A DNA stretch of 38,468 nucleotides from an uncultured Microbacterium sp. (GTDB lineage Bacteria > Actinomycetota > Actinomycetes > Actinomycetales > Microbacteriaceae): positions 1-38,468 of the forward strand of contig CAJYJO010000022.1 of NCBI GenBank assembly GCA_913774845.1, written 5' to 3'. Made by a program: the position numbers and the translations under genes. Shown one piece after another: positions 10,670 through 15,748 of this stretch; the first letter of the stretch is position 1; the number at the start of each line of letters is the position of its first letter. Below the pieces are notes generated by a model. The model was not told where the DNA came from. It made no database searches and was given only the letters and a program-made list of their open reading frames with translations.

Positions 10670-12000
10670 GCGTTTCTCCGGTAGAAGGGAAGAGCGGTGA
10701 CGGTCGCGGGGATACGGGTTCCGCGCACGTCGATGGACAGTTCGGTTCCGAGGGCGGATGCCGCGGGGGCGACGAACGCCATCGCGACGGGGTGGCCGAG
10801 GGTGGGGCTGAGCGCCCCACTGGTGATCTCGCCGACGGTGTCGTCGCCGTGGAGCACGGAGTATCCGGCGCGGCCCGCGCGCCGGCCCTCCGAGACGAGG
10901 CCCACCAGCACGGGGGCGTCGGCCGGAGCCGACGAGAGTCCGGCCTTGCCCACGAACGTCTCCTTGTCGGCGGCCACCACGCGGCCGAGGCCGGCCTGCG
11001 CGGGGACGATGTCGCGCGAGAGCTCGTGGCCGTACAACGGCATGCCGGCCTCGAGGCGGAGGGTGTCGCGGGCGGCGAGACCGCACGGCACGAGGCCGCG
11101 GTCGGCACCCGCGGCGAGCGCAGCGTCCCACAGGCCGACGGCGTGCGCGACGGGGATCATCAGCTCGTAGCCGTCCTCGCCGGTGTACCCGGTGCGGGCG
11201 ACAAACAGCGGTGCCCCGTCGAACGTGCCGTCGGTCCAGGCGTAGTAGCCGAGCGCGTCGAGAGCGGTGCCGGTGATCTCGACCCCCGGTGTCGAGCTCA
11301 AAATGCCACGAGCCTCGGGGCCCTGGAGGGCGATGAGGGCGTAGTCGTCGGTGACGTCGTCGATGGTGAGGGTTCCGCGAGCGTCGGTCGACGAGCCTGT
11401 CGACGCGGATGACGTGGGGGTTCCGGTCCCTTCGACAGGCTCAGGGACCTCGGTTGCGGGCCCAGGGAGCTCGGTGGCGGGCTCAGGGACCTCGGTGGCG
11501 GGCCCAGGGACCTCGGTGGCGGGCTCAGGGACCTCGGTGGCGGCGGGAGCGTCGGTCGTTGAGCCCGTCGAAGCGTCCGACGCGGGACGCCACGTCGCCT
11601 GCGCGGTATCGAACGCCGCGGCCACGGCATCCCGGTTGCCGGCGTTCGAGATGACCAGGAAGCTGTGCTCGCCCGTGCGGTAGACGATGACGTCGTCGAC
11701 GATGCCGCCGCTCTCGGCGAGCACGAGCGAGTACTTGGCCTTGCCGATCTTCATGGTCGACAGGCGCCCGGCGAGCATGTAGTCGAGGAACGCGGCGGCG
11801 CAGGGGCCGGCGACGAGGAACTCGGCCATGTGCGAGATGTCGAACAGGCCCGCGGCCTCGCGCACGGCGCGGTGCTCGGCGAGGTCGGAGGTGTAGCGCA
11901 CGGGCATGTTCCAGCCGCCGAAGTCGGTGAACGAGGCGCCGAGGGCTTCGTGCCGATCATTCAGCGGGGAGGTGCGCGGTGGAGCGGGGGTTTCGGTCAT
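10666..12000 (-). CDS. gcvT: Glycine cleavage system T protein (aminomethyltransferase) with in-frame repeat insertion
   Basis: T-protein: releases ammonia from the H-protein-bound aminomethyl group and makes 5,10-methylene-THF. Conserved GcvT features are present: [13 protein letters not shown] and FDISHMAEF near the N-terminus, [15 protein letters not shown], and [15 protein letters not shown] near the C-terminus. The protein is 444 residues against about 365 in typical homologues. The surplus is a Pro/Glu/Thr-rich insertion at about residues 140-207 made of 7-residue repeats (P-A-T-E-V-P-E/G), encoded by the DNA repeats at 11379-11582. It lies between the conserved [11 protein letters not shown] and [12 protein letters not shown] segments, probably on a surface loop, so the enzyme may remain active. 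ATG 12000 is the first start after the riboswitch; upstream in-frame sequence belongs to the riboswitch. Confidence 0.95.
11379..11582. repeat. In-frame 21-bp tandem repeats flanked by copies of a dispersed-type repeat, inside gcvT
   Basis: Five tandem 21-nt units of the form (c/g)tcagggacctcggtggcgg span 11440-11544 (starts 11440, 11461, 11482, 11503, 11524). Units alternate between CTCAGGG and CCCAGGG. A palindrome-ended block GGTCCC...GGGACC with core ttcgacaggctca is at 11425-11449. Two related 36-nt blocks flank the array: 11379-11414 (gagcgtcggtcgacgagcct...) and 11547-11582 (gagcgtcggtcgttgagccc...). The words 'cttcgacaggctcagggacc' and 'ggtcgttgagcccgtcgaagc' resemble an abundant intergenic repeat of Micrococcales, recognised from memory and not searched. 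Every unit is a multiple of three, so gcvT stays open. Confidence 0.9.
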
Positions 12001-12049
12001 GAGTTCTGCCGTTCGCGATGACGGACAGACGCCGGACGGCGCCTGAAGA

Positions 12050-12242
12050 ACTCCCCCTCTGTCATGGGCCTGAGAGTTTCGCCGCGCGGATCGCGGGGCT
12101 TTCACCGTCGGCGGGTTCGGGGACGTGGCATCCCGAACCTCTTTCCAGAGTGGCCCGATCGACGCGGTACGCGTACCTGAGAGATTGGCGGGGAGGCTTG
12201 CTCCTTCGGTGCCCGGCTGCGTTCGCCGGAGCTCTCCCGCAT
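12050..12242 (-). promoter_or_regulatory. Tandem glycine riboswitch
   Basis: Reads 12242 to 12050 on the minus strand, 5' of gcvT. Aptamer 1: GCGGGAGAGC at the 5' side, then CACCGAAGGAGCAAGCC, closed by CCAATCTCTCAGGTA. Aptamer 2: CTCTGGAAAGAG, then CGCCGACGGTGAAAGCC, closed by GGCGAAACTCTCAGG and GACAGAGGGGGAG. The paired 'ACCGAAGGAGCAA / GACGGTGAAAG' and twin 'CTCTCAGG' signatures are diagnostic of the two-aptamer glycine class. About 50 nt separate it from the gcvT start; a pyrimidine/purine switch stem may form around the ccccctctg element. In this class glycine usually turns on gcv expression; that direction is inferred here. Confidence 0.95.
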
Positions 12243-12274
12243 CGATCATGGGGCCGGTGTGGACTTGTGGGGTC

Positions 12275-12309: not shown

Positions 12310-12804
12310 TCAGCCGTTGTCCTGCTTGCGGAGCTCGGCGGCGTCGCCGGGGACGCAGAGAGAGGTGCCGGCGATGTGGTAATCCCCGGGAGCCGTCGAA
12401 AAGGACAAGCCCGCTACGGGGCCGCCGGACGCGTACACGACGTATAAGGGGATATCGACGACTCGCACCTGCATACCGAGCGACGTCCAATAGTCCGCGA
12501 TGATCCTGGCGTCCGCACCTCGATCACTATCGGGAGCAGGCGCGCCGTAGCCATAGGTGAAGTTGGCCCGCTCACCCTGCGGGCCGTCGCAATCGCCGAC
12601 CTCGGGCGCGTGATCGCGGTTCCATCCGGTGGCATCGAGTTTGGCTGCGCTGTCTTCGATGGTGGTGACGAGAGCATCACGAGCTTCGGCAGGAGTCATC
12701 TTGTCTTCCTTCGATTGCGCACAGCCGGACAGGCCAATCAACGAGAGCCCCACAAGCACCCCTAGGGCGGGAAGAAGTACCGGGCGACTAGTCCGCAACA
12801 CCAT
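12310..12804 (-). CDS. Lipoprotein of unknown function, second copy of the cassette lipoprotein
   Basis: Predicted 164-residue lipoprotein: short basic N-terminus, hydrophobic stretch, lipobox LSGC (Cys near residue 28). The mature part has conserved blocks shared with the paralogue at 13148-13642: EARDALVTTIEDSAAKLDATGW, GERANFTYGYGAP, WTSLGMQVRVVD, VYASGGPVAGLSFSTAPG and the ending GTSLCVPGDAAELRKQDNG. Two mature cysteines (in GDCDG and SLCVPG) could form a disulphide. The start overlaps the end of the decayed hydrolase tail in the same way that the paralogue's start overlaps the intact hydrolase stop. I do not recognise the family. Position directly after a secreted-type hydrolase fits an immunity or accessory lipoprotein, but that is inference. 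Confidence 0.75.
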   Translation of the reverse strand: MVLRTSRPVLLPALGVLVGLSLIGLSGCAQSKEDKMTPAEARDALVTTIEDSAAKLDATGWNRDHAPEVGDCDGPQGERANFTYGYGAPAPDSDRGADARIIADYWTSLGMQVRVVDIPLYVVYASGGPVAGLSFSTAPGDYHIAGTSLCVPGDAAELRKQDNG

Positions 12805-13105
12805 TCGTCATTCCTTCGATCAACGCCTTCTGCAGCGGAGTCGGAGCCGGCGGCACCTAGGGAGAAACGAGGTCGCCGTGACCGGTCGTCGCGAGGGCCA
12901 CGTTTCGAAGCGACTCCGTCTGCCCCGCGACACCGATCTGCGCGGCGCTGTCCTCGACCGTGCTGACGAGAGAGTCACGCGCTTCATCCGCGCTCACGGT
13001 GGCCTCGAGTGAGGCCACGCAGGACGTTAGAAGGAGACCGGCGACCAGGACGGTGACGGACGAGGCTGCACCACGGACAGCGAGGGATGCCCTGAACGAC
13101 GTCAC
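12788..13105 (-). pseudogene. Chimeric remnant: lipoprotein N-terminus fused to DUF1023-hydrolase C-terminus, with an internal stop
   Basis: From GTG 13105 the frame encodes a signal peptide with lipobox (LLTSC), then SADEARDSLVSTVEDSAAQ, matching the cassette lipoproteins. It then switches to TESLRNVALATTGHGD, matching the extreme C-terminus of the hydrolase at 13635-15455 (TESLRNVALATTGQGD). A TAG at 12857-12859 stops the frame where the intact hydrolase has a Tyr codon. The same frame continues beyond it as VPPAPTPLQKALIEGMTNG, matching the hydrolase end APGPTPLQRAIIEGLTSG, to a TAG at 12788. This is best explained by duplication of a hydrolase-lipoprotein unit followed by deletion that joined a lipoprotein 5' part to a hydrolase 3' end, then a nonsense mutation. 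The first 82 codons could still make a small lipoprotein. Confidence 0.85.
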
Positions 13106-13147
13106 GTACGCCCATCTTTCTGCGCCACCAAGGCGCCGGTTGAAAGC

Positions 13148-13642
13148 TCAGCCGTTGTCTTTTTTGCGCAGTTCTGAGGCGTCACCCGGAACACACAGCG
13201 AGGTACCGACGATGTAGTAATTACCGGGCCCAGTCGAGAAGGACAAACCCTCAACGGGTCCGCCCGTTGCGTACACGACGACCGACGGCCTGTCTACAAC
13301 GCGAACCTCCATGCCGAGTGACTTCCAGTGCTCTGCGACCTTGTGCGCGTCTGCCGCAAAGTCCCTGGACTGCGGTGGCGCGCTGTAACCGTAGTTGTAG
13401 TTCGCGCGTTCACCCGGCCGGTCTCCACAGTTGCCGACTTCGGGGGCCCCTGTCCACGCCCAGCCTGAAACATCGAGCACGGTCGAGGTCTCCTCCACCG
13501 TGGATACAAGCGTGTCGCGGGCCTGTTCAGGACTCATTGTGTCTCCCTCAGAAGTCGCACACGACGACAACATGATCACCATCGAGCTCGCCAGAGCCGC
13601 GCAAACGGCACGGCCTGCATGTCCTCGCGTGCGCCTATCCAC
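13148..13642 (-). CDS. Lipoprotein of unknown function downstream of the WXG-DUF1023 hydrolase
   Basis: 164 residues with basic N-terminus, hydrophobic stretch and lipobox LSSC (Cys about residue 28), so probably exported and lipidated. The mature region resembles the paralogue at 12310-12804 almost throughout: EQARDTLVSTVEE, GERANYNYGYSAP, WKSLGMEVRVVD, VYATGGPVEGLSFSTGPG, GTSLCVPGDASELRKKDNG. GTG 13642 overlaps the hydrolase stop by 8 nt and has no separate ribosome site, so translation is coupled to the hydrolase. Function is unknown to me. Coupling to a secreted-type hydrolase suggests it acts with, or protects against, that protein (inference). Confidence 0.8.
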   Translation of the reverse strand: MDRRTRGHAGRAVCAALASSMVIMLSSCATSEGDTMSPEQARDTLVSTVEETSTVLDVSGWAWTGAPEVGNCGDRPGERANYNYGYSAPPQSRDFAADAHKVAEHWKSLGMEVRVVDRPSVVVYATGGPVEGLSFSTGPGNYYIVGTSLCVPGDASELRKKDNG

Positions 13643-15455
13643 TGGTCAACCCTTCGATGATCGCTCGCTGAAGTGGGGTGGGCCCGGGGGCCACATAAGA
13701 GGACACCTGATCGCCCTGCCCCGTGGTGGCCAGAGCCACATTTCTCAGTGACTCCGTACGGAGGTCAAGATAGCCGGTGCCTGCAGCCGTGCTCACACCA
13801 TGATCAGTTACCGGTAGCTGAGTACCCTCGCCTGCGACGCTGAACGTATGTGCTCCGAAACTCGGATCGATCGGGTTGACAGGGTGCGCCCAGGACGCAC
13901 GTCCGGTCCAAGCCCACTGGTCGCCTCCCGCCGGATCGATCACCCAAACATCTTGGGCCTGACCCGCGAATACGTGCTCAGCCTTGAGCTTCCCGGCCTG
14001 ATCCACCTCCGGCGGAAGGCCAGCTGAACCAAGCGTGACGAACGAATCGACCTGCGCCTCGCCCTGACTCAGCGCGATCGATGCCGTCGTTGTGCCGTAG
14101 GAATGCGCGACAACATTGACCTCAGCACCAGGTCGAATGCTGTCGAGCGCGGACAGATCCGCGGCGAGGGCACGTCCGCCCTTTTCAGCGAGCTCTATGC
14201 CCAGGACGTCGAATCCTCCTTGCGCTACAGGCACCGGAGGCGTCTCGTATCCCACCCAGGCGACAACAGCATGCTGTCTTCCGCTGTCGACTTGGTCCTG
14301 GAGCGTGGCAATGTTCTGAGCGGTACGGACCCAGTCCCCCATCCCCTCCGTTGTCGTCCCCATGCCGGGCACCGCGTAGGTGATGTCGTCGGCGATGTCG
14401 AGATCCCCAATGGACACAGCCGCGAGGGGTGGAGAATCTGCGGTGAGCGACATGAGAAATCTCGGCGCCTTCCCGTCGGGCGACACCAGCGACGACTCGA
14501 TGTCCTCGAGCCCCTTGACGCGGGAACGGGCCTGGTTGAGCCGCTCGGCATATGCCTGGGCCGCGGCGTAACCGCCGAGGATCTCGCCGTACGTCGGGGG
14601 CTTCTCCGCCTCGGCCAGGGCGGCGCGCGCATCCGCCAGTTGATCCTCGAGCCAGATGCGGTTCACCTCGTCGCGAGCTGAGTAGGCCACTCCCCCGAGG
14701 TTGCCGATAATCGCGGGAGCCGCGTGGATGAGAGCCTCTTTCTGAGAGTCATCGAGTTCCGCCCACCAGGGTGCAACCGCGGAGGGCTCCGCCTGGGCGA
14801 GGACAGCGGCGAGGCTCGGTCGCGCCCGGAGAAGCGTCGCGAGGCTGGCCGCATCCGCGCCCGCGAGTGCGTCGAGCACCTGGCTGGGGCTCGCGCAGCC
14901 GATCAAAACAGCCGCCCACTCGTCCGCGCCGAGCCCGGGCACAGCAATGGCGGCGCGGAGTGCCGCCGCGGCCCGCTGCGCTGCGTTGCTGAGCGCAGCG
15001 CGCGCATCGGCAAGAAGCGCTCGCGCTTCCGCGCGCGCTCCAGAACCCTGGAAAGCCCGTCGATCCGGCCCGAGCCAGCCGGACGCTTCAGCAGGTGCGT
15101 CCTGGAACGCTGCCGCATCGAGAACGTCAGCCCGGTCCCAGAGATCGATCGCGTCTCCCGCCTTGGCGCGCGCCGCGTCAATGGCGGCCGCCACATCCTC
15201 GAGCGCGGACTGGCCAGCTCGGAACGCTGTTGCCATGGCGGTCCACCCGGATGCCACCGTGCCCGCGCGGGTCTCGTACGCGGCGGCCGCTTCACCGGTC
15301 CAATCGGGAACCGTTCGCATCGAGTGGAGCGCCGAGCCCACATCCTGCGCGCTCTCAGCGCGCGCCCGCCACGCGGCTGCAGCGCGGTGAAGCTCGCCCA
15401 CGTCACCGGGAACGAGCAGGGACGGATCCCGAGTGCTTCCGAGCTCGGCGGTCAT
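13635..15455 (-). CDS. WXG-like N-terminal domain + DUF1023-type alpha/beta hydrolase
   Basis: 606 residues. The N-terminal ~110 residues are helical with WTG at Trp52 (PDWTGEAAAAYETRA), like the WXG100-type domains that lead proteins to type VII secretion. A coiled, Ala-rich middle follows. The C-terminal ~260 residues are an actinobacterial alpha/beta hydrolase of the DUF1023/Abhydrolase_8 kind: TYAVPGMGTTTEGM, the nucleophile elbow AHSYGTTT with Ser452, then VTLGSAGLPPEVDQA, a late Asp (WVIDPAGGDQW) and His in TDHGVSTAAGTGYLD. Start ATG 15455 overlaps the upstream small gene by ATGA; a TTG 12 nt earlier is less likely. Substrate is unknown; related proteins are usually annotated only as hydrolases. 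Role as a secreted effector is inferred from domain layout. Confidence 0.85.
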   Translation of the reverse strand: MTAELGSTRDPSLLVPGDVGELHRAAAAWRARAESAQDVGSALHSMRTVPDWTGEAAAAYETRAGTVASGWTAMATAFRAGQSALEDVAAAIDAARAKAGDAIDLWDRADVLDAAAFQDAPAEASGWLGPDRRAFQGSGARAEARALLADARAALSNAAQRAAAALRAAIAVPGLGADEWAAVLIGCASPSQVLDALAGADAASLATLLRARPSLAAVLAQAEPSAVAPWWAELDDSQKEALIHAAPAIIGNLGGVAYSARDEVNRIWLEDQLADARAALAEAEKPPTYGEILGGYAAAQAYAERLNQARSRVKGLEDIESSLVSPDGKAPRFLMSLTADSPPLAAVSIGDLDIADDITYAVPGMGTTTEGMGDWVRTAQNIATLQDQVDSGRQHAVVAWVGYETPPVPVAQGGFDVLGIELAEKGGRALAADLSALDSIRPGAEVNVVAHSYGTTTASIALSQGEAQVDSFVTLGSAGLPPEVDQAGKLKAEHVFAGQAQDVWVIDPAGGDQWAWTGRASWAHPVNPIDPSFGAHTFSVAGEGTQLPVTDHGVSTAAGTGYLDLRTESLRNVALATTGQGDQVSSYVAPGPTPLQRAIIEGLTSG

Positions 15456-15748
15456 TCGACGGCCCAACCCTGGACGGCACCCAGCGCCCGCACGTCGGCC
15501 TGGGCGTCGGCATCCATGCTCTCGAACATGTCCGCCACCTCACGGAGTCCGGTCACGAGTGCGTCGACACCGCGCCGACGCTCAGCGGTGCAGTCATTCA
15601 TGCACCCGACGAACTCCGCCAGAGCGCGGCTCAGGTCAGGCTGGTCAGCAACGGAGAAACCCCGCAGTTGCGACAGGTCCGGCACGACGTCGTTCATCTT
15701 CGACGCCACCCACCGCACCTCGTCGACCGAAAGGGAAATGTCCCCCAC
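15452..15748 (-). CDS. 98-aa EspC/WXG100-like small protein, first gene of the cassette
   Basis: Small helical protein of the size of type VII secretion targets. From GTG 15748 it reads GDISLSVDEVRWVASKMNDV, resembling the start of EspC-like proteins (about 100 aa, helix-turn-helix), with a second helix around DALVTGLREVADMFESMDADAQ. Longer in-frame starts (ATG 15775, or 15856) exist, but the TAGGCT box at 15756-15761 lies exactly 7 nt from GTG 15748 and no ribosome site is seen. The longest version would also run antisense into the LuxR remnant. It overlaps the hydrolase gene by ATGA, so the two products are probably made together and may pair for secretion. No secretion ATPase (EccC) gene is in the window. 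Confidence 0.65.
   Translation of the reverse strand: MGDISLSVDEVRWVASKMNDVVPDLSQLRGFSVADQPDLSRALAEFVGCMNDCTAERRRGVDALVTGLREVADMFESMDADAQADVRALGAVQGWAVE

Follow-up and report, generated by a model that had tools for sequence, protein, structure and literature searches.

TslA of Staphylococcus aureus is a type VII (T7) phospholipase A; the lipoprotein TilA binds the enzyme with a Kd of 14.2 nM and inhibits it, and TslA/TilA loci carry extra lipoprotein genes in variable number (PMC10730906, in the portions of that paper drawn on here). The T7 secretion system (T7SS) immunity genes EsaG, TipC and TsaI occur in tandem as strings of nonidentical copies, with recombination reported for EsaG and TipC (excerpts of PMC9484751). 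Here, we describe a cassette at positions 12310–15748 of a window of 38,468 nucleotides (the whole stretch of DNA that was analyzed, which is contig C22 of the 3.37 Mb genome G000 of an uncultured Microbacterium sp.), in which a small EspC-like protein, a hydrolase with a DUF1023 catalytic domain and lipoproteins are encoded together. The cassette is likely to be a polymorphic toxin–immunity locus of an actinobacterial T7SS, and TslA/TilA is the nearest tested precedent for its hydrolase–lipoprotein pair.

Both systems combine a T7-linked enzyme of (predicted) lipase type with small helical partners, lipoprotein immunity (predicted in Microbacterium), a variable set of extra lipoprotein genes and a polymorphic catalytic domain (PMC10730906, same portions). 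In TslA, however, the lipase is N-terminal and the LXG-like T7 domain is C-terminal, and the lipoproteins belong to DUF576 (PMC10730906, same portions), whereas the Microbacterium locus encodes a DUF1023 hydrolase of the reverse domain order with lipoproteins of an unnamed family in an actinobacterial host with EccC. With this reversed order, and with no DUF576 match of the lipoproteins at E ≤ 1, the locus falls outside the TslA/TilA family. It shares with EsaG, TipC and TsaI the strings of nonidentical, here candidate, immunity genes (excerpts of PMC9484751), but the toxin and immunity families are others and in Microbacterium the catalytic half of the toxin moves with the immunity gene. The polymorphic toxins Tox-ABhydrolase-1 to -3 resemble the hydrolase in placing an α/β-hydrolase toxin domain in a secreted modular protein (PMC3482391); the parts of that catalog covered here contain no DUF1023 and no lipoprotein that confers immunity to a T7 toxin of this kind. 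DUF1023 was published as an α/β hydrolase in 2005 (cited in PMC11878206 and PMC9966272, in part), and DUF1023/PF06259 appears in a table of PMC8467076, in a row that concerns a mutant of Micrococcus luteus. An S. aureus protein is also said to share the PF06259 fold. The passages on DUF1023/PF06259 in PMC11878206, PMC8467076, PMC9966272 and PMC8986115 state no link to lipoprotein immunity, and none was found in the titles and abstracts searched, in which the subscription literature is partly covered.

Every gene of the cassette lies on the minus strand, in the order 98-residue protein, hydrolase, first lipoprotein (lip1), chimera and second lipoprotein (lip2), with the following features.

15452–15748, minus strand: 98-residue EspC-like small partner protein (open reading frame, ORF), without a Pfam match of its own.
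13635–15467, minus strand: WXG/T7SS_signal–DUF1023 (Abhydrolase_8) hydrolase of 606–610 residues (Pfam domains), predicted to be a T7SS-exported toxin.
13635–14336, minus strand: exchangeable part of the hydrolase with the catalytic residues, from about residue 378 (identity breakpoints).
13148–13642, minus strand: lip1, lipoprotein of 164 residues (ORF) with its lipobox cysteine at position 28, predicted to be the immunity partner cognate to the intact hydrolase.
12800–13105, minus strand: chimeric remnant, the start of a third lipoprotein joined in frame to a hydrolase tail (sequence matches).
12310–12804, minus strand: lip2, intact orphan lipoprotein, 81% identical to the lipoprotein of G243 and M105, predicted immunity protein left from a displaced hydrolase.

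An earlier note, made from the letters of this DNA, had described a translationally coupled EspC-like/hydrolase/lipoprotein cassette, and the overlapping gene ends and the Pfam domains on the hydrolase bear this out. The hydrolase ATG at 15455 overlaps the stop codon of the 98-residue gene as ATGA, and lip1 overlaps the hydrolase end by 8 bases. The T7SS_signal domain (PF21725) spans residues 7–175 of the hydrolase (E = 3e-15; 57.1 bits against a cut-off of 27) and Abhydrolase_8/DUF1023 (PF06259) spans residues 348–512 (E = 4e-24; 85.6 bits against a cut-off of 20.5), with no further Pfam domain above cut-off. Ser456, Asp506/Asp516 and His556 are invariant in an alignment of 15 sequences and would form the α/β-hydrolase catalytic triad. 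The protein thus scores above the curated DUF1023/Abhydrolase_8 cut-off with the Ser, Asp and His conserved, and its T7SS N-terminal domain and EspC/WXG-like partner gene are the sequence hallmarks of a T7SS substrate. The small protein has relatives in genomes G243, G149, G007 and G219 and in Microbacterium testaceum StLB037; because three of the seven members of its family match EspC (PF10824; best E = 4e-5), the label EspC-like is fair. In StLB037 the small gene (L098:3844–4137) contains an in-frame TAG, though the hydrolase and lipoprotein of that strain are open.

Neither lip1 nor lip2 has a Pfam match at E ≤ 1. Invariant in their family are Cys28 (lipobox), Trp61, Cys72, Trp106 and Gly127, a third cysteine is nearly invariant, and Cys72 and Cys150 may form a disulfide. 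A search of the named genome collection with the single lip1 sequence gave no match; an alignment query retrieved 25 loci, including M. testaceum StLB037 and NBRC 12675. Phage or plasmid origin was considered and rejected, with no relative in viral contigs and no plasmid match, and a PADLOC search for defense systems returned nothing except a weak match of the small protein (E = 0.05).

Exchange of the catalytic half together with the lipoprotein

The catalytic half of the hydrolase and the lipoprotein are exchanged as one block, with both edges located in two pairs of genomes and the left edge in a third pair that includes the window. A change-point fit (log-likelihood gain of 210) divides the G243 and G149 units into three stretches, with 92.9% identity from the small gene up to residue 377 of the hydrolase, 64.6% in a middle stretch that ends 17 bases short of the lipoprotein stop codon, and 91.9% beyond. 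Synonymous divergence (dS) between the two is 0.12–0.21 up to residue 390 and about 2.0 thereafter, the mark of replacement by recombination and not of fast protein evolution. The second two-sided case is G170 and G235 (84.5, 64.8 and 91.9%; gain of 122). In this pair the left edge precedes the PGMG motif by 44 codons (it falls at codon 334 in the G170 frame) and the right edge lies 20 bases beyond the stop codon of the lipoprotein; the left edges of the other two pairs lie about 10–12 codons after this motif. Between the window and StLB037, identity drops from 87.7 to 64.3% at residue 379 (gain of 101) and is again 95–99% from about 12400; lip2 intervenes here, and the right edge was left unfitted.

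Among seven related units, the catalytic half and the lipoprotein of G149 are nearest to those of G007 (76 and 80%, respectively) and its N-terminal part is nearest to that of G243 (93%). The locus shows what characterizes polymorphic toxins: a conserved delivery part, an exchangeable C-terminal catalytic part and a linked candidate immunity gene. Eight scanned proteins from Rathayibacter, Arthrobacter, Klugiella and Leucobacter carry the same catalytic part with other N-terminal stretches that have no T7SS_signal match.

Origin of the chimera and of lip2

The chimeric ORF (13105–12857) opens with a lipoprotein signal and about residues 1–62 of a lipoprotein (about 12920–13105), and the last 42 residues of a hydrolase follow (12800–12925), with an in-frame TAG within this tail. 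The fusion and the internal TAG reported in the earlier note are thus present, but not in the order given there, since the lipoprotein start precedes the hydrolase tail. The tail frame enters the start of lip2 as the intact hydrolase enters lip1, and the ORF coordinates agree with the earlier observation that both hydrolase-tail/lipoprotein overlaps have one layout.

This common layout had suggested that the local unit was duplicated in place and that a deletion then fused the copies. A second in-frame chimera is in keeping with such a history: G126 has a locus at which the start of a lipoprotein continues in frame into the tail of a hydrolase, with different breakpoints, so that deletions within tandem arrays do occur. 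The relationships of the parts, however, already contradict it. lip2 is 81% identical to the lipoproteins of G243 and of the metagenome-assembled genome M105 but 59% identical to lip1, and the chimera tail matches the end of the G243 hydrolase at 37 of 43 residues and 117 of 142 bases, compared with 30 of 40 residues and 82 of 119 bases for the local hydrolase (the similarities to lip1 and to the local hydrolase, the latter with E = 8e-12, are nevertheless above chance). That the second unit is a duplicate of the first is therefore not supported, and we regard the duplication–deletion history as improbable.

The window instead holds two alleles that belong to a single site, lip1 with its StLB037-like hydrolase and, behind them, the remains of a G243-like unit, because lip2 and the tail match the G243 unit and the intact hydrolase is nearest to that of StLB037 (80%; 75% for G149 and 72% for G243). 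G243, G149, G007 and G219 each have one unit at this site, between a trypsin-like membrane protein and gcvT, and the same chromosomal site holds a damaged remnant in G073 and a short scar in G024. In StLB037 gcvT lies on the same side, and the trypsin-like gene was not found within the fetched stretch. The lipoprotein piece of the chimera is nearest, among 25 compared, to the second lipoprotein of G046 (L041; 31 of 59 residues), so that three lipoprotein lineages have probably met at the window locus.

Pairing of hydrolases and lipoproteins

Lipoprotein matches (E ≤ 1e-3) occur in 34, and hydrolase matches (E ≤ 1e-10) in 65, of 247 genomes sampled from the genus. Each of the 20 long hydrolase matches (at least 290 bits, some of them missing the N-terminal 55–165 residues of the query) has a lipoprotein match −4 to 77 bases downstream. 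A lipobox protein or a weak family match is found directly behind the hydrolase at 15 of 17 loci selected from the remoter hydrolase matches; for several of these lipoproteins the family profile gives no more than a weak match (E = 1e-3 to 1e-5), and the lipoprotein of L085 is recognized by its lipobox only. Comparison of mature-domain profiles relates the remote to the core lipoproteins with 98 and 96% probability in two clades and with 30% in a third.

Sampling through lipoprotein matches gave 47 loci with a core lipoprotein. A long hydrolase ORF is found at 30 of them (including L045 of G126, with the N-terminal part in another frame, and L055, with a distant hydrolase), pieces only at nine (including L122, where the hydrolase is split over two frames) and no hydrolase was seen at eight. 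Repeats (L099, L100, L102–L107 and L119) were left out of the 47, and L065 (scar only) and the remote loci L066–L073 and L081–L097 stand outside this count. With all 20 long hydrolases paired and with 39 of the 47 lipoprotein loci keeping a long hydrolase or a piece of one, the toxin–immunity type of locus proposed in the earlier note is supported; lipoprotein homologs occurring mostly without the hydrolase, which the note had named as evidence to the contrary, is not what was found.

Some loci are expanded arrays. The Rathayibacter iranicus array (L110) comprises a single hydrolase and, behind it, five lipoproteins among which three hydrolase tail ORFs are interspersed, and L109 contains three lipoproteins and one hydrolase tail that begins just before the catalytic-serine motif. 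The eight loci without a hydrolase, the nine with pieces and the L110 array correspond to the orphan immunity genes and toxin tails of polymorphic toxin–immunity systems. In contact-dependent inhibition (CDI) and Rhs systems, truncated C-terminal toxin fragments, each with its immunity gene next to it, lie behind the full-length toxin gene. The tail fragments described here, each followed by a lipoprotein gene, resemble these orphan modules, but the secretion route and toxin families differ, and in the tail pieces inspected here, that of L109 apart, the catalytic-serine motif was not seen.

The core hydrolase was never seen without a lipoprotein, yet lipoproteins were seen without a hydrolase, and such a pattern would be expected of an immunity gene. 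The earlier note had allowed either an immunity or an activator role. Were the lipoprotein an activator, a foldase or a membrane tether needed by a secreted lipase, and not its inhibitor, adjacency and overlapping frames would be explained as well, since they suit any obligate partner, and paired exchange is neutral between the two roles. A partner of this kind would, however, hardly be expected at loci where the hydrolase is absent (eight of 47) or in pieces (nine more) or in multicopy lipoprotein arrays with hydrolase stubs, nor would lip2 be kept after its hydrolase was lost. Immunity is thus the better-supported role, and that of an activator, foldase or tether is unlikely.

Distribution and exchange also bear on whether the protein could be a housekeeping or self-remodeling envelope hydrolase with a dedicated regulator, with variation reflecting drift only. 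The low ratio of nonsynonymous to synonymous divergence (dN/dS) of the catalytic half (0.10–0.17 where computable, with dS saturated) would fit such an enzyme, as would a DUF1023 form of about 400 residues with a different neighbor in other actinobacteria. A housekeeping function is nevertheless highly improbable in our estimation, given the restriction of the family to a minority of the genus (the 34 of 247 genomes with a lipoprotein match), its decay at the same site in G073 and G024 and the recombination that exchanges the hydrolase part together with its partner.

Two further arrays are recorded here. A second locus of the genome that contains the window (L034:5684–10598, contig C3) consists of a small gene, a hydrolase, two lipoproteins and a WXG100 gene, behind which lie one more lipoprotein, the tail of a hydrolase and a lipoprotein that is truncated. 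In G220 a distant hydrolase-like protein (L042:8363–10168; no Pfam match at E ≤ 0.1) is located inside a lipoprotein array and is possibly another toxin at the same site.

Delivery, proposed function and DUF1023 loci in other Actinomycetota

The genome encodes an EccC of 1334 residues with EccCa and EccCb matches far above the curated cut-offs, and the gene is located a few kilobases from WXG100 genes. EccCb is above cut-off in 88 of the 247 genus genomes; the 20 long hydrolase matches are spread over 17 genomes, of which 13 have EccCb above cut-off. In at least eight genomes (G021, G069, G077, G087, G116, G144, G184 and G237) a remoter hydrolase lies 2–12 kb from an EccC-like match, each of these matches being below the curated cut-off. 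Two other genes of the genome share the N-terminal domain of the hydrolase, L079:5330–7355 (contig C2; PF21725) and L080:5720–7791 (contig C41; match to the window hydrolase). Both have a different C-terminus, which by eye resembles nucleases of the restriction-enzyme fold (L079 has no Pfam match there), followed by a similar neighbor of about 160 residues without a lipobox, and they probably represent a second toxin–immunity family. A membrane-anchored partner for the hydrolase and a cytoplasmic partner for a nuclease would be what immunity needs.

On the toxin–immunity reading, the EspC-like protein and the WXG/T7SS_signal N-terminus would deliver the hydrolase via an ESX machine, in line with its predicted export by a T7SS. 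The C-terminal α/β-hydrolase half (DUF1023) would then damage the envelope of competitors, with extracytoplasmic cleavage of membrane lipids as its most likely mode of action. The producer would be protected by the lipoprotein, which would be anchored to the outside of its membrane, at the presumed place of toxin action, and would neutralize the toxin there. New specificities would arise when a block of catalytic half and lipoprotein is swapped onto the resident delivery part, and earlier lipoproteins, in many cases together with a stub of their hydrolase, would be retained as orphan immunity genes against toxins met earlier. In the window, the StLB037-like hydrolase with lip1 would have displaced a G243-like one, of which lip2 and the stub would be the remains.

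The target could alternatively be eukaryotic (plant or protist), with the lipoprotein shielding the producer's own membrane. Some T7SS effectors act on eukaryotes, and several of the named host organisms are presumably plant-associated. Orphan and arrayed partner genes and block swapping better suit conflict between relatives, though, and the absence of any other Pfam domain above cut-off in the hydrolase likewise lends no weight to a eukaryotic target, for which we see very little probability.

Several observations weigh against the toxin–immunity reading or parts of it. In a fourth close pair, G235 and G070, there is no exchange, and identity is 85.6% through the hydrolase and lipoprotein and drops only behind them; because it stays at this level, the catalytic half is not simply faster-evolving. 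In a comparison of 29 units the lipoprotein follows the N-terminal part as closely as it does the catalytic half (partial correlations of 0.47 and 0.47, with a permutation control that covers one of the two), which leaves the recent exchange events as the argument for joint movement. Values of dS in the exchanged parts are saturated, and the low dN/dS of lip2 against G243 (0.09) also covers the time before displacement. Among the remoter hydrolases of the genus, L094 and L096 have no lipoprotein behind them, and the remote loci L067–L071, which were fetched via weak lipoprotein matches, have no lipoprotein at E = 1e-12 and weak or no profile matches. Four genomes with long hydrolase matches (G046, G137, G031 and G010) have EccCb below the curated cut-off only. 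The lipoproteins match no known immunity family: 29 members gave scattered weak matches in Pfam (best E = 0.011), and the family profile gave a best E of 0.74 against PDB sequences. Finally, of 29 loci read from a DUF1023 search of 296 Actinomycetota genomes, ten have a lipoprotein behind the hydrolase (those of L147, L150 and L156 were judged to be lipoproteins by eye), eight encode the form of about 400 residues with a different neighbor, nine have no lipoprotein behind and two are unreadable (at L155 and L158 no hydrolase ORF was found). A universal DUF1023–lipoprotein pairing fails in this sample.

A search of 296 Actinomycetota genomes for LppA (PF16708) gave matches in three, with one above cut-off (G396), which seems to be a mycobacteria-like genome. 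Its seven LppA matches all lie behind four DUF1023 hydrolases, the first lipoprotein overlapping the hydrolase end each time, with tandem copies at two places. At L134 (G396:C1:4604000–4616000) a DUF1023 hydrolase and an LppA lipoprotein are located between an EccC gene and two WXG100-like genes (the latter with matches below their cut-off); G396 has two more DUF1023 matches, and neither is flanked by an LppA match. The LppA loci resemble the Microbacterium cassette in the overlap, the tandem copies and the pair beside EccC, but the lipoproteins have no clear similarity. The 29 members of the Microbacterium lipoprotein family have no PF16708 match at E ≤ 1, and assignment of lip1 and lip2 to the LppA family was rejected because the hhalign probability of 94% with signal peptides is only 3% on mature domains (0.1–0.2% for shuffled LppA controls). 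An LppA protein of G396 has no match in the PDB.

We tentatively extend the toxin–immunity reading, in a form that may hold but that we do not quite favor, to T7SS-exported DUF1023 hydrolases as a broad group of Actinomycetota toxins directed at the envelope lipids of other bacteria, for which the lipoproteins that follow, including mycobacterial LppA, would provide immunity, with specificity spread by block swapping and old lipoproteins kept as a memory. If so, DUF1023 enzymes, which have a fold but no biological role in the literature searched, and the unnamed lipoproteins would have a joint function, ESX-type secretion in environmental actinobacteria would serve warfare between relatives and LppA-type lipoproteins would gain a candidate role, by position only.

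Beside the end of lip2, a tandem glycine riboswitch (12049–12249, minus strand; two RF00504 aptamers of 48.9 and 68.5 bits) sits directly upstream of gcvT. The gcvT gene contains an in-frame run of repeats of about 68 residues (about 11400–11620, minus strand), which resembles a dispersed DNA repeat within a housekeeping gene; the gcvT genes of G243 and G149 apparently lack it, judging from split matches whose coordinates adjoin.

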